A stretch of DNA of 64,000 nt from Ianthella basta (lineage: Eukaryota > Porifera > Demospongiae > Verongiida > Ianthellidae): positions 702,501 to 766,500 of the forward strand of contig OZ025870.1 in NCBI GenBank assembly GCA_964019415.1. Direction: 5' to 3'. The translations under genes and the position numbers were made by a program. Numbering within the stretch: position 1 is the first letter of the stretch; the number at the start of each line of letters is the position of its first letter. Positions 10,824 to 47,815 of the stretch are shown here, one piece after another. The notes beneath the pieces are model-generated. The model searched no databases and was not told the origin of the DNA. It saw only the letters and a program-made list of their open reading frames with translations.

Positions 10824-11749
10824 CTAGGAATAGTGCACGATGGCCCTCAGCACCAGTGTGGCAGCCATGATGGTGCACATCTGCTGACGCTGGTCTTCTC
10901 CTACATTCAGTTTCTTTTCGCCGAAATAGTGAATGTCACAAGGCTCATTCTTGTCATGGCCGGCAAGGTCTGAAATTCCTTTCACAATGACATACTCCGG
11001 TACTGGAACTTTAGAGTCAGTGTCTTTGATGAGTCTGTCATTGATCATTTCGACAATCTTCACCGCCTCCGCCACACCTAGCCCCTCCATCTCAATGCCT
11101 ATGTCAGATGGATTAACAGAAAATCCACTCAATGCTTCTGCAGCCTGCTTACTCTTCACCACATAGTCACCTGATATGAATCGGTCGATTTCCTTGTAAG
11201 TAACCTGTTTATCAGGAATCTGCATATCTTCCATCTGTTGTATCTGGTAACACCAAGTGGTGCGGTGACTGCCATATTCTGTTGTTGGTTTCCACTTTAT
11301 TCCTAACTCTTCTTCAAATTTCCCCTTGTTGTAGTGGATGACATTATTTGATACATGCACTGTACCAACATCAGTGTTACCATCAACACTTCTACCTCCA
11401 CAGCACCCAATAACAAACACAGCTTCAGGCTGCCAACCTTGGTCATGAGCTGTAAGAAGAAGCTTTAGAGTCTCCATTCTTGAGCCGGATTTACCACTAG
11501 TGCCCATTGATTTGCACTTCATGACAGCAAAACAGACTACATTCCCCTCCTCTCCACGCACACTGAAAAACACATAGTCCTTGGAACTGCGCTTCATCTT
11601 AATGCGGTCCTTCAACTCAACTATATCAGCAAACGTTGTGTCTACCGGATCTTGTAGTTTACAATTAGGATACTTCAAGAAACTCATCAGGCTTACATAC
11701 TCATTCTTGTTGGCTGTGATGAGCACAAACTGAACGTTCTCCCCTGGCC
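10824..11749 (-). CDS. Nucleoside phosphorylase-fold protein, 3' exon
   Basis: A single large terminal exon encodes about 308 residues. It begins at a splice acceptor (TTGTAG/GGCC at 11750), so at least one upstream exon is missing from this annotation. The fold is the PNP/MTA-SAH nucleosidase superfamily: an early beta strand with VLITANKNEY, a central VFVIGCCGGRS, a ribose-site-like IGIEMEGLGVAEA, and VIVKGISDLAGHDK with the conserved Asp position used for base protonation in nucleosidases. The end, AATLVLRAIVHYS, is a terminal helix. Such domains hydrolyse or phosphorolyse nucleosides; in bacterial and fungal NLR-like proteins they serve as effectors. Whether this protein carries a death-fold N-terminus cannot be seen. 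The stop is TAG. Its paralogue is at 13157-14277. Confidence 0.75.
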
Positions 11750-13156: not shown

Positions 13157-14277
13157 CTAGGAATAGTGCACGATGGCCCTCAGCACCAGTGTGGCAGCCA
13201 TGATGGTGCACATCTGCTGACGCTGGTCTTCTCCTACATCCTGTATTGTTTCACCAAAATATTGAATGCCACAAGGCTTATTCTTGTCATGGCCAGCAAG
13301 ATCGGAAATTCCTTTCACAATGACATACTCTGGCACTGGAACTTCTTTAGAGACAGTGCCTTTGTCGACTCTGTCATTGATTATTTCAGCAATCTCCAAT
13401 GCCTCAGCCACGCCTAGCCCCTCCATCTCAATTCCTATGTCAGAAGGTTTAACAGAATATTTACTCAATAAATTCTGCAGTAGCTTATTCTTCACCACAT
13501 GGTCACCAGATAGGAATCGGTTGATTATTTTGCAAGTAATCGTTTCCCCAGAAATCTGCATATCTTGCATTCGTTTTATATTCCTACATCAATTACTGGG
13601 ACTGCCATACTCTGTCGATGGTCTCCACTCTATTTCACCCTCGCCCTTAACTTTCCCCTTGTTGTAGTGGATGATACGGCTTGATATACACACTGTACCA
13701 ACATCAGTGTCACCATCACCTTTGCCATCACCACTATCATCATCACCATTGCCATCACCATTGCCATCGCCTTTGCCATCACCACAATCACAATCACCAT
13801 CACCATCACCTTTGCCATCATCTCTGCTATCACCACCATGGCCATCACCATCACCATTGCCTTCACCATTGTCATCATCAACATCAACTAGCACACTTCT
13901 ACCTCCACAGCACTCAATAACAAACACAGCTTCTAGCTGCCAACCTTGGCCACGAGCTGTAAGAAGAAGCCTTAGAGTCTCCATTCTTGAGCCCAATTCG
14001 CCACTACTGCCCTTTGATAGGCACTTCATGACAGCAAAACAGATCACTTCCCCACTGTCTCCACACACACTGAAAAGCATGTAGTCCTTGAAACTGCGCT
14101 TCAGCTGAATGCGGTCATGCAACTTAACTATATCATGAAACGTTGTGCCTACTTGATCTTGCAGTTTACACTCAGGATGCTTCAAGAAACTCATCAGGTT
14201 TACATACTCATTCTTGTTGGCTGTGATTAGCACAAACTGGTCGTTGCAGTGGCTTACTGCAATGAACCGACCTCTCA
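13157..14277 (-). pseudogene. Nucleoside phosphorylase-fold paralogue with TGA and repeat expansion
   Basis: The frame is the same as in the 10824-11749 protein and the similarity is high. Two lesions are seen. First, an in-frame TGA at 13589-13591 sits where the paralogue has Trp in TTWCYQ; the surrounding alignment needs only a 3-bp deletion, so there is no frameshift. The putative ribose-site and Asp-containing half lies after this stop. Second, 13690-13885 is an in-frame Gly/Asp-rich insertion of about 60 residues, a (GATGGT/GATGGC)-type simple repeat, inside the GGRSV-TDVGTV loop. The upstream exon border is replaced by the ribozyme element starting at 14242, so the original acceptor is lost. 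It is probably inactive, although readthrough cannot be excluded. Confidence 0.75.
13690..13885 (-). repeat. Gly/Asp-coding trinucleotide-like expansion
   Basis: Irregular tandem GATGGC/GATGGT/AATGGT hexamers on the minus strand, read in frame as GDGDGNGD-type sequence. It is absent from the paralogue, which has only SVDGNTDV at this place. Confidence 0.85.
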
Positions 14278-14376
14278 ACAATCCCGCGCAAGTCACGCTC
14301 ATGACTTAGCCTTCCCCCATTAATATTCACTCTTGTTGAAACCACAAGTGTTTCACTGGTGGCGGATACAAGAGTG

Positions 14377-14474
14377 ACTAGTCATCCTGCATTCCATCAG
14401 TACGCCACACTGATGAGCCCCAATCAGGGCGAAACAGCTGTCTGTGGCTCTTCCATCTTTGTAGGATGACTAGT
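14377..14474 (+). ncRNA. Type I hammerhead self-cleaving ribozyme
   Basis: All core elements are present in order. Stem I 5' strand GCCACA is 14404-14409, CTGATGA is 14410-14416, stem II GCCC/GGGC is 14417-14420 with 14427-14430 (loop CAATCA), and GAAA is 14431-14434. The minimal stem III is ACA/TGT (14434-14436 with 14439-14441, 2-nt loop), the cleavage triplet GTC is 14440-14442, and the stem I 3' strand TGTGGC is 14443-14448. Stem I continues past an internal loop into a perfect 12-bp outer helix (14377-14388 with 14463-14474). Cleavage is predicted after 14442. Very short stem III is typical of hammerheads in animal retrozymes and Penelope-like elements. Confidence 0.93.
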
Positions 14475-14501
14475 GATGGGGGAGGGCAATCACTGGTTGC
14501 C

Positions 14502-14556
14502 ATCAATAGGGCTCCGGCCCCCCAGCCTCCTGAAACACTTCGGTGTAGAAGGCTGG
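14502..14556 (+). ncRNA. Hairpin with cUUCGg tetraloop
   Basis: CCAGCCT (14522-14528) pairs with AGGCTGG (14550-14556); an internal loop is followed by ACAC-TTCG-GTGT (14535-14546), the very stable C(UUCG)G tetraloop. This lies 3' of the hammerhead and is enclosed by AATCACTGG/CCAGTGATT. Confidence 0.75.
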
Positions 14557-14642
14557 TAGGCGTAATATCCAGTGATTAATCCTTGTTCAACCTAGCCCGG
14601 CCTGGCCGTTGCAGTGGCTTACTGCAATGAACCGACCTCTCA

Positions 14643-16785
14643 GCACACTATGTACGTAGCACAGCTAATGCATTTTGACAGCTTGACTGCGTAGTACAAC
14701 ACATCACATTGTGGGAGTATTGCAATAAATCAGCAGGCACTTAAGCATAGATGTAGGATCCCCATGCTTACAATATAGTAAGGTGATCTTATAACATGTA
14801 CAGGATAAGGTAACGTTCTTAGAATTTTATGCAAACGTCATAGTGAGATGGCCGCCGCATAGCGCAAAAATGCTTGTGCTATTTTACTTAGTAACTAGGC
14901 GAAACTCAGCCACCCGCTCGCAGTATGGAGACCAATCAGAAAGCAGAGTATTGCAAACTTTTGGTTGGTGCCTCCCCCAAATCTGAAAGTCTCTTAAAAT
15001 GCTTAGCTTTGATTTTTAGAAATTTTGTCTTTGAGGATAAAACCAGTCTGGCTGGTCAGCCACAAGGAAGGAGGACACAACATGTAATGAAGATGAGGAA
15101 GCAAGTCATCATGGATTCAGGTATATAGAACGTGGCACACTGATGGAATGACACAAAAAGCCATTCATATATTATGAGGAAAATCATGTTTAGACAAACA
15201 CACCAATGTAGGGTAGAAGAAACTTGTATGTAGTTAGGCCAAAATTAGATTGGTGAAACTCAATAGAGTCCATAAACATGCAATAAGAAATGAGTTTGGC
15301 TTTAAGCTAGATGTTTATTGCTGCGTCATCAATATACAGGAATATTATATATGTTCGAGTAATTATATAGTAGGGAGAAAATCTGGTTGCTTTCACCTTG
15401 AGGGTCTGCATCAGCTGAGTGACTGAAGAATGCGGGTAGAAACAAATCTGCATGCTAGAACACAATCACTGTTACAAACAGTACCTTTTTCTCTGAGCTT
15501 CCATATACACCGAAGCACCATGGTATAAGTGATATACACTCAGTCTAGCGCGTCTAGGCTCTTATTCAAAAGGCGGGCTTTTTCCAGGAAGGCAGCTCTG
15601 AAGAGCGGCTGCCTTTGTTAAATGTGCAAGTGCTATGAAGTTTTTGCCTTACGTTAAGCCACTGGAGCAACACTCTAAGGGGCCAGTGAAGTGATTGAGG
15701 CTTCTGTGATGTTCTCGGCCTTCGAGGGTTCTTTGCACTCGTGGCTCGACTTTCTGTTCTCCTTGAAACAGTGCATTCCCACTGCTGCAGTGACTTTGAG
15801 TGCCCTTGCGTACAAATTAGTGCACAAGCTTGCTGTTTTTCATTTCTGCACTGTGCGGGTTGCGTACATGGTTTATCTAGCTCGGCTACGGAGCACTGTA
15901 CGTTGTTGGCTTGCGTGCATTGATTGCAGCATGATGGAGGGAAGTATTCTCCTTTTCAATGCTTTGTGGACTCTCCCAAAGCCACACAAAGTTGAAGCTG
16001 ACTGCACGCTGCATTTGTACGTATGTGCTTTGGTGTGATTTGACACTTTCATAGTTATCAATAACAACTTCCATGATTTGGGCATGATAACAGGATTTAG
16101 GCGTCCCTGTGCAGTATATAGCTTCTTATTGCAGTCATACCCCCCAAACAGCTTCTTATTGCAGTTATATCCTGGCAGTTGCCCCGGCAAAGAAGTATAT
16201 ATATATAAAGTGAGATGACTCGGCGACGAGATTACTTGCCTCGCCTTTCGGCTCGGCAATAACATACCAGACCATCTAGCAGGATGTTTAACTGTTGGTG
16301 TTATACAGGCACCAGTGTCAGCACGTGCACATATGAAAGCTACACTGACTGATCAGATAACCTGTGGTCGTGGCAGTGGAAATGGCAGAGAAGGCCAAAC
16401 AGTTGAAATCACAGAGTTAGCTAAAATTGTCAGTGCAGTGTTTGGGATCATGTGTGCAAGCATGGAGATTAGCTACAAATCATAAGCCCCCACAAAATAT
16501 AGACACAAAACAACTAACTAACAACTGTGCATGGCCGCCCAAAGCTACGCAAAGCTATGGCTGAGGAATTGCAATGGCTTGTGGATAGCTAAGTGGTGGC
16601 TAGCTAGCTAATTGAGATGGCCCAAGGCAAAGATGCTAGTTAGCTAATAGTGACATGAACTCCACTATTAGAAAATAAAAATTGTAGCTAAAGCACAATT
16701 AAAGTTCATGTACACTTCTGGTCTGGATAGCCATGTAGGTAGTTAATGGTCTGATCAATTTCTGTAGAAACATGCATGCTAAATA
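14643..16785. other. Intergenic, fragments only
   Basis: No gene is supported. An open stretch at 14925-15119 (METNQKAEY...) ends at a possible donor (TCAG/GTATAT) and could be a first exon, but I do not recognise it. Positions 15437-15510 resemble 16765-16830, the 3' end of the CARD exon, so they are a small duplicated remnant. A short direct repeat (gcttcttattgcagt) lies at 16110 and 16151. Confidence 0.4.
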
Positions 16786-19859: not shown

Positions 19860-21316
19860 GGTCTTGTAAGCATCTCTGCATATCTTTATAGCTGGGACAG
19901 TAACCACTGTCCTCATTAGAGAGGTGTCCTTATTTCAGAGGCAGTTTTGTACACATCTCTATGTAGCTGGGACAGTAACCACTGTCCTCATTAGAGAGGT
20001 GTCCTTATTTCAGAGGCAGTTTTGTACACATCTCTATGTAGTGGGAACAGAGATAGTAGGCACTGTCCTCATTAGAGAGGTGTCCTTATTTCAGAGGCAG
20101 TTTTGTACACATCTCTATGTAGTGGGAACAGAGATAGTAGGCACTGTCCTCATTAGAGAGGTGTCCTTATTTCAGAGGCAGTTTTGTACACATCTCTATG
20201 TAGCTGGGACAGTAGGCACTGTCCTCATTAGAGAGGTGTCCTTATTTCAGAGGCAGTTTTGTACACATCTCTATGTAGTGGGGACAGAGATAGTAGGCAC
20301 TGTCCTCATTAGAGAGGTGTCCTTATTTCAGAGGCAGTTTTGTACACATCTCTATGTAGTGGGAACAGAGATAGTAGGCACTGTCCTCATTAGAGAGGTG
20401 TCCTTATTTCAGAGGCAGTTTTGTACACATCTCTATGTAGTGGGAACAGAGATAGTAGGCACTGTCCTCATTAGAGAGGTGTCCTTATTTCAGAGGCAGT
20501 TTTGTACACATCTCTATGTAGCTGGGACAGTAGGCACTGTCCTCATTAGAGAGGTGTCCTTATTTCAGAGGCAGTTTTGTACACATCTCTATGTAGCTGG
20601 GACAGTAAGCACTGTCCTCATTAGAGAGGTGTCCTTATTTCAGAGGCAGTTTTGTACACATCTCTATGTAGCTGGGACAGTAAGCACTGTCCTCATTAGA
20701 GAGGTGTCCTTATTTCAGAGGCAGTTTTGTACACATCTCTATGTAGCTGGGACAGTAGGCACTGTCCTCATTAGAGAGGTGTCCTTATTTCAGAGGCAGT
20801 TTTGTACACATCTCTATGTAGCTGGGACAGTATTCACTGTCCTCATTAGAGAGGTGTCCTTATTTCAGAGGCTGTTTTGCATGCATCTCTATGAAAGTTG
20901 GACAGTATGCACTGTCCTCATTAGAGAGGTGTCCTTATTTCAGAGGCAGTTTTGTACACATCTCTATGTAGCTGGGACAGTAGGCACTGTCCTCATTAGA
21001 GAGGTGTCCTTATTTCAGAGGCAGTTTTGTACACATCTCTATGTAGCTGGGACAGTATTCACTGTCCTCATTAGAGAGGTGTCCTTATTTCAGAGGCTGT
21101 TTTGCATGCATCTCTATGAAAGTTGGACAGTATGCACTGTCCTCATTAGAGAGGTGTCCTTATTTCAGAGGTAGTTTTGTACACATCTCTATGTACGTAG
21201 CTGGGACATAGGCATTGTCCTCATTAGACAGGTGTCCTTATTTCAGAGGCAGCTTTGTACACATCTCTATGTACGTAGCTGGGACAGTAGGCGTTGTCCT
21301 CATTAGAGAGGTGTCC
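19860..21316. repeat. 75/81-bp minisatellite, copy 2
   Basis: About 19 units, expanded relative to 7572-8556. The 75- and 81-bp unit lengths are multiples of three, so 19924-21174 stays open on the plus strand with a 25-27 residue periodicity. Its codons follow the DNA repeat exactly and it has no recognisable domain, so I do not annotate it as a gene. Confidence 0.9.
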
Positions 21317-47360: not shown

Positions 47361-47678
47361 CCTGGCCCCAATGTACTGTGCCTTAACCTGCTGCACTCTG
47401 ATCTGCTGTACCCTGTCTTACTGTTCCTAGTATTTTACAGTCAATTTCAGAACGGTTGGCCAAAAATGGCAGCAAAAGGCAGAACAATCAAATGGTGTGA
47501 CATCACTATTATATCACTACTTGCCATTATTTCACACCTATGTCCATGCAGTACTTCCATTTGCTATGATGTCACGCTATTTGCCATTTAGCCTTTGGAC
47601 AACCATTGTGCTGCAGACAGGCTGTATTGAGAGCAACCACTGTTTTGACCTGATTTGGCCTCATCAGTGCAGCACACT

Positions 47679-47815
<137 letters not shown>

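Follow-up and report, generated by a model that had tools for sequence, protein, structure and literature searches.

A type I hammerhead ribozyme of Ianthella basta in a non-coding retrozyme family very probably moved by Penelope-like machinery

Animal retrozymes and their hammerhead ribozymes are known, and cleavage and ring closure of such RNAs were shown in other animals (PMC7229834). As to their movement, Penelope-like elements are named in the passages concerned only as a strong candidate (PMC7229834), animal retrozymes are said to possibly rely on them (PMC8969392), and the animal repeats are described as carrying no conserved motif by which the moving element could be told (PMC7761336). 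Minimal hammerheads are known in Penelope-like elements themselves (PMC7229834, PMC7761336), as is a head-to-head order of copies with an optional tail (PMC3846280). According to the relevant part of PMC11167929, a Penelope protein starts inside the RNA at two adjacent sites, and the stretch between them is the known tail.

The window analysed here is a whole stretch of 64,000 nucleotides of I. basta contig OZ025870.1, and the coordinates of its features are collected in Table 1. A complete type I hammerhead had been proposed by a sequence-only reading of the window, and this was borne out by the covariance search with the Rfam type I model (RF00163, Hammerhead_1), which matched over its full length (positions 1-45 of 45) with 38.7 bits against a gathering cut-off of 34 and an E value of 3.1e-6; it was the sole match above the gathering score on both strands of the window. 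The parts named in that reading were found in their places, i.e. CTGATGA at 14410-14416, stem II (GCCC/GGGC), GAAA, the GTC, the inner stem I (GCCACA/TGTGGC) and both strands of the outer stem I, except that stem III (ACAGCTGT), given there as 3 bp, is more plausibly a 2-bp stem capped by an AGCT tetraloop because 3 bp would leave a 2-nt loop. The 2-bp form has been described in invertebrates (PMC7229834). Judged from sequence, the core is complete and the self-cutting RNA is real, and since the GTC ends at 14442, cleavage is expected 3' of that base. The view that such an assembly is unlikely to arise by chance was likewise upheld: with up to 3 mismatches allowed, the 33-nt core had 611 matches genome-wide (331 + 280), and the reversed core had 0. 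The region 14280-14610 (331 nt) folded with a z value of -7.9 relative to 100 shuffles, of which 0 were as stable.

Table 1. Positions in the window of the ribozyme, the repeat unit with its end sites, and the adjoining gene copy.
Feature	Position	Strand	Remark
Host gene copy	13157-14236	-	Broken by the insert on its 5' side; does not belong to the element
Retrozyme insert	14237-14642	+	End of one unit (from ~u323) and one unit up to the tail end
365-nt unit	14280-14644	+	Coordinate system, u1 = 14280; period 365; tandem copies elsewhere
Outer stem I, 5' strand ACTAGTCATCCT	14377-14388	+	
Type I hammerhead ribozyme	14404-14448	+	Rfam RF00163
Outer stem I, 3' strand AGGATGACTAGT	14463-14474	+	
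Inner end site TTGTTCA	14583-14589	+	u310; used at one end of two-ended inserts elsewhere
Tail hairpin TTGCAGT-ggctt-ACTGCAA	14609-14627	+	
AATGAACC	14626-14633	+	Same place after the hairpin in Penelope families A and B
Tail end site CTCTCA	14637-14642	+	u363

A 53-nt stretch is repeated in the window 365 nt apart on both sides of the ribozyme. When 14280-14645 was searched against the same genome (209 Mb, 96 contigs; 40 of 1072 candidates scored), at least 140 matches were obtained, many of them 95-99% identical and many in tandem at ~365 nt. The unit has no protein-coding region, the longest stop-free stretch round the circle being 65 codons on either strand, and its GC content is 52.3% (window, 43.5%). 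Folded as a circle, it gave -143.7 kcal/mol with 60% of the nucleotides paired. The hammerhead thus sits in a mobile repeat with hundreds of units in the genome and is not a lone gene-serving ribozyme, and the anatomy of the 365-nt unit is that of metazoan non-LTR retrozymes, which are an established type of element; no LTR was seen when 38 stretches were mapped on the unit. An ORF with reverse transcriptase (RT) and GIY-YIG domains was not found in the 365-nt unit, which is therefore regarded as a rider of Penelope machinery and not as a Penelope element itself. Single exact core copies were also seen at G000:C4 9562715, 9567647 and 9572581 and at C8 2116874-2722296, and their regular or loose spacing suggests later duplication of larger stretches carrying an insert.

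The 38 mapped stretches are the clusters closest to the window copy (L055) and not a random sample. Two head-to-head arrays with their 3' ends outward and with readable ends were found in 25 of the 38, of which 23 were established by mapping alone, L071 by reading the end and L057 by 5 nt (GTTCA) only. In all 25, one outer end fell at the inner site (u307-315, in most cases directly after TTGTTCA) and the opposite outer end at the tail (u361 to u3, in most cases directly after CTCTCA). One-ended inserts were present in 9 of the 38 stretches (L050, L052, L053, L055, L056, L060, L064, L073 and L077), and in all 9 the 3' end lay at the tail, which suggests from the distribution of ends that the tail start comes first; the tail start seems to be needed and the inner start optional. 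Neither L067 (tail and u299) nor L078 (tail and u36) fits the pair, and L074 and L075 are nested and diverged, the outermost pieces of L075 (81% identical) both stopping at u305 in the mapping. L080, two copies of one duplicated insert, was counted once. Flanking direct repeats of at least 8 nt were present in 21 of the 25 two-ended inserts (8-16 nt, a few of which are common to the ends of the element) and in 3 of the 9 one-ended inserts, against 3 of 600 mismatched pairs of left and right flanks. The coordinates at which the arms join were scattered, being equal in L057, L065 and L079 (u18, u20 and u28, respectively), and the two arms of L061 together held ~8.7 units.

At least 18 other hammerhead matches, 13 of them above the cut-off, were found in the genome (73 of 23027 candidates scored) and are members of related families. 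Stem changes were read by structural parse, since the longer stem III of family D had been misaligned by MAFFT; 19 rows were tried and 18 parsed (L043 was not). The inner stem I was GCCACA/TGTGGC in 7 of the 18 rows and ACTGCA/TGCAGT in 6, namely L038, L042, L044 and L046-L048, where both sides were changed with pairing kept. These six rows make up an additional hammerhead family in which stem III is longer and stem I altered yet paired. Among 17 other hammerhead loci (a set without L041), 7 rows had readable ends and 10 had none, and the 7 represent 5 independent inserts (L032, L033, L034, L043 and one common to L036, L037 and L045), each of which had one inner and one tail end. Besides the element in Table 1, no second one was found in the window other than a decayed family-D-type hammerhead at about 47610-47680 on the minus strand. 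It keeps an 8-bp stem I (GTGCTGCA/TGCAGCAC) and CTGATGA, has AAAAC in place of the expected GAAAC, and gave no Rfam match at E values up to 1.

Penelope-like elements of the same genome were compared end by end. At least 55 GIY-YIG matches were obtained (150 of 176 candidates scored), and RVT_1 together with GIY-YIG was present in all three ORFs scanned (from L087 and L088). Two entries among the GIY-YIG matches listed have an uninterrupted frame of 844 aa, so that a source of Penelope protein in this genome is plausible from its predicted frames. Counting by eye among the 55 listed matches gave 15 pairs of GIY-YIG neighbours no more than 5 kb apart: 13 head to head (minus on the left, plus on the right), 2 in tandem and 0 tail to tail. 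Among the 13, C10:2498720 and C10:2831578 seem to be copies of a single locus. Ends were fetched for 12 of the 13 and resolved in 10, the C2 pair and C10:3575349 (one end seen) being the other two. In all 10 resolved pairs, one arm stopped at an inner site, the other was ~35 nt longer and ended in TATCA, and direct repeats of 9-15 nt were present (those of L087 and L088 were read by eye). A third GIY-YIG family (the C2 pair, L101, L102, L109 and L110) had one arm cut short, and L111, a single end, appears to stop at the tail. Upstream in the Penelope 3' regions, a minimal hammerhead-like motif was seen, CTGATGAAGATCTACGGATCGAAACGTC in one family and a CTGAAGA variant in the other; Rfam did not report this motif in the Penelope copies at E up to 5 and 10. 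A near-perfect palindrome of two Penelope-like copies occupies 749-4534 of L088 (G000:C19:1082700-1087950), and the microRNA-named Rfam matches at its centre were set aside as an effect of that palindrome.

Retrozyme and Penelope elements share a hairpin followed by (A)TGAACC ahead of the tail end. Up to the end of the element, the tail reads TTGCAGT-ggctt-ACTGCAATGAACCGACCTCTCA in the retrozyme, TGCTGTGT-loop-ACACAGCAATGAACCCTTATCATATCA in Penelope family A (PLE-A) and TACTGCG-loop-CGCAGTAATGAACCTCTACAGTATCA in family B (PLE-B). When compared with PLE-A, no other part of the unit scored as high as the tail, which agreed at 12 of 13 positions, a level reached by 19 of 20000 shuffles; the match to PLE-B was 8 nt long, was surpassed elsewhere in the unit and was equalled by 686 of 20000 shuffles. 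All four families compared (retrozyme A, retrozyme B as represented by L043, PLE-A and PLE-B), which are not fully independent, have a perfect 6-8 bp stem ending 0-2 nt before TGAACC. The same held for 1 of the 22 remaining TGAACC occurrences in the window, and 245 of 5000 randomly chosen positions likewise had such a stem. In retrozyme C (L034) the hairpin is present and TGAACC absent, and in L032, L033, L036 and L037 of retrozyme B, ACAAACT stands in its place. In the Penelope elements the inner site falls within the hairpin loop; in the retrozyme it precedes the hairpin. No homology to the 365-nt unit above noise was seen in two long Penelope copies, and the likeness is therefore confined to the tail motif.

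Because the same pair of inner and tail ends, the head-to-head layout and the hairpin with (A)TGAACC are shared, it is very probable that Penelope machinery moves the retrozyme. The hammerhead is accordingly read, with rather high confidence, as the putative processing ribozyme of a non-autonomous, non-coding 365-nt retrozyme, copies of which would be inserted by Penelope-like RT/GIY-YIG machinery from two fixed sites. By analogy with published retrozymes, read-through transcripts would be cut after the GTC (14442) and the monomer RNA would be closed to a circle. The Penelope-like machinery would then insert copies and leave short direct repeats, as the anatomy of the inserts suggests. Reverse transcription would start at the tail (u363, likely first) and at the inner site (u310, likely second), both of which flank the hairpin plus (A)TGAACC; one target strand would prime at the tail and the opposite strand at the inner site, perhaps both on one RNA circle. 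Copying round the RNA would yield tandem units, and the two cDNAs would meet head to head and then be joined. The fullest version of this scheme, which we regard as about equally apt to hold or to fail, is twin-primed rolling-circle reverse transcription, in which a Penelope-type RT would copy the retrozyme circle from both cut strands for several rounds, each at its own fixed site (tail first, inner second), with the hairpin and (A)TGAACC as the recognition tag; the unit would be colinear with the Penelope 3' region (hammerhead, spacer, hairpin, tail), its possible ancestor.

It is rather unlikely that Penelope machinery was at work but that the arms arose by fold-back or self-priming of one cDNA instead of priming from both strands. 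Self-priming has been argued from palindromes at the junctions of Penelope elements (PMC3846280), a 3.8-kb part of the Penelope copy L088 matches its own reverse complement with 99.6% identity, and the junction coordinates of the two arms coincide in the three inserts named above, out of 25 two-ended ones; however, they differ in the remaining two-ended inserts, and wherever the arms join, the second arm has its outer end at the inner site. Moreover, the Penelope protein of PMC11167929 cuts and extends both strands in vitro.

For signs of a common template, units of one locus were compared with those of different loci. The mean identity was 0.973 within loci (121 pairs) and 0.956 between loci (3341 pairs), and it was 0.972 across the arms of the same locus (57 pairs). 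In 19 of 22 multi-unit loci, the units were more alike inside than relative to the average other locus, which was reached in 0 of 2000 label shuffles, and the ten units of L061, from both arms, were nearly identical (mean 0.999). When each locus was instead set against its nearest other locus, the units were more alike within it in only 6 of the 22, and of 339 non-majority positions 58 were common to all units of their locus, so that the picture of a common template is blurred by later mutation. The likeness within a locus possibly stems from gene conversion or a multimeric linear template and not from one common circle. Two-site insertion by Penelope machinery from a multimeric linear read-through RNA, in place of a circle, is judged fairly improbable. 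Its case is that tandem source arrays are present in the genome, that unprocessed RNA was the dominant substrate of the Penelope protein in vitro and that hammerhead cleavage was dispensable for insertion there, hammerhead mutants being without effect (PMC11167929), so that the circle is no more than a proposed template. Against it stand the nearly identical units in both arms of the young loci L061 and L053, the RNA circles shown in three other animals (PMC7229834) and the hammerhead core, whose 14 positions vary less than the remaining unit (15 of 1016 cells vs 440 of 16847 in 85 unit copies, a set which leaves out L074, L075, the second insert in L080 and pieces below 120 nt).

That a different retroelement (LINE) or more than one helper moves the retrozyme is quite improbable: the genome abounds in RT domains (150 of 3653 candidates scored), but in the end-by-end comparison, which covered the Penelope elements of the same genome, the two end sites with a tail, the head-to-head arms and the size of the direct repeats matched those of these elements. 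Still less credible is plain satellite DNA amplified by recombination, with the hammerhead as a relic; tandem arrays and the likeness of units within a locus agree with it, whereas the flanking direct repeats of dispersed inserts (21 of 25, control 3 of 600), the fixed ends, the palindromic order and the reduced variation of the core (15/1016 vs 440/16847 cells) do not.

The window copy belongs to the one-ended class and has no clear target duplication (6 nt). The first 3-4 bases of the insert (14237-14240) are common to the host sequence and the element. To the left, the host sequence continues like a paralogous gene, the interrupted copy having ORFs at 13157-13570 and 13589-14302 on the opposite strand; to the right, no likeness to the upstream sequence of the paralogue was seen, and host sequence may therefore have been lost there. 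The better-kept paralogue (10824-11726) scored 18.2 bits with PF01048, below the Pfam cut-off of 25.1, and is from this score weakly phosphorylase superfamily-like; no relative was found in the PDB at E up to 0.1. The neighbouring gene was thus not retained as an immune gene, and the link between ribozyme and immune-type gene made in the sequence-only reading found no support, the insert being a mobile repeat lying 5' of an opposite-strand gene copy. AIG1 and CARD proteins are present elsewhere in the window, and since the element also occurs on many other contigs, the immune-gene neighbourhood is taken to be incidental. A host-serving ribozyme that regulates the neighbouring gene, as its position beside the gene copy might invite, is hardly tenable, given the opposite strand, the interruption of the gene copy and the hundreds of copies elsewhere. 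Within the broken gene copy, a low-complexity repeat (ATCACC.../GDGDGDG) at 13691-13894 was observed which was not seen in the paralogue ORF. On the plus strand, a long open frame at 19924-21174 consists of short repeats in tandem (SLFQRQFCTHLYVAGT...) and is probably a minisatellite that happens to read as an ORF.

The ends of the inserts address the question which autonomous element moves metazoan retrozymes, by a matching end pair, order, direct repeats and tail motif in one genome, and the question becomes testable in other animals and in vitro. The picture offered is of how a small RNA circle could leave tandem and palindromic DNA. Matching insert ends or head-to-head retrozyme arrays were not found in the literature searched, which mostly excluded subscription papers and preprints; relative to the literature examined, what appears to be new from the mapped sequences is how the retrozyme copies end.

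Compared with the metazoan non-LTR retrozymes as described in PMC7229834, the I. basta element agrees in its type I hammerhead with a 2-bp stem III and tetraloop, in its non-coding tandem units (170-400 nt there, 365 nt here), in its highly self-paired RNA and in duplications of more than 4 bp. It differs in a GC content of 52%, against a described tendency below 50% (below 45% in a figure legend), and has head-to-head arrays with two fixed ends, whereas the word 'inverted' is absent from the main text of that paper, as are 'sponge' and 'Porifera'. With the plant LTR retrozymes (PMC4918200) it has in common the nature of a hammerhead-processed, non-autonomous retroelement, the circular RNA being reported for the plant elements; these differ in a type III hammerhead, LTRs, a primer binding site and 4-bp duplications (PMC7229834, PMC7761336). 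The GIY-YIG Penelope-like elements, as far as described in the cited parts of PMC3846280 and PMC11167929, resemble it in head-to-head order, target duplications, an upstream hammerhead motif, an optional tail (30-40 nt in theirs) and a stem-loop region that holds two neighbouring internal start sites. Unlike them, the retrozyme lacks an ORF, its hammerhead is complete where theirs is minimal, its two sites are 53 nt apart and it forms tandem units of one short repeat, and while the authors of PMC11167929 observed no strand difference in start site, each two-ended insert here uses one of each.
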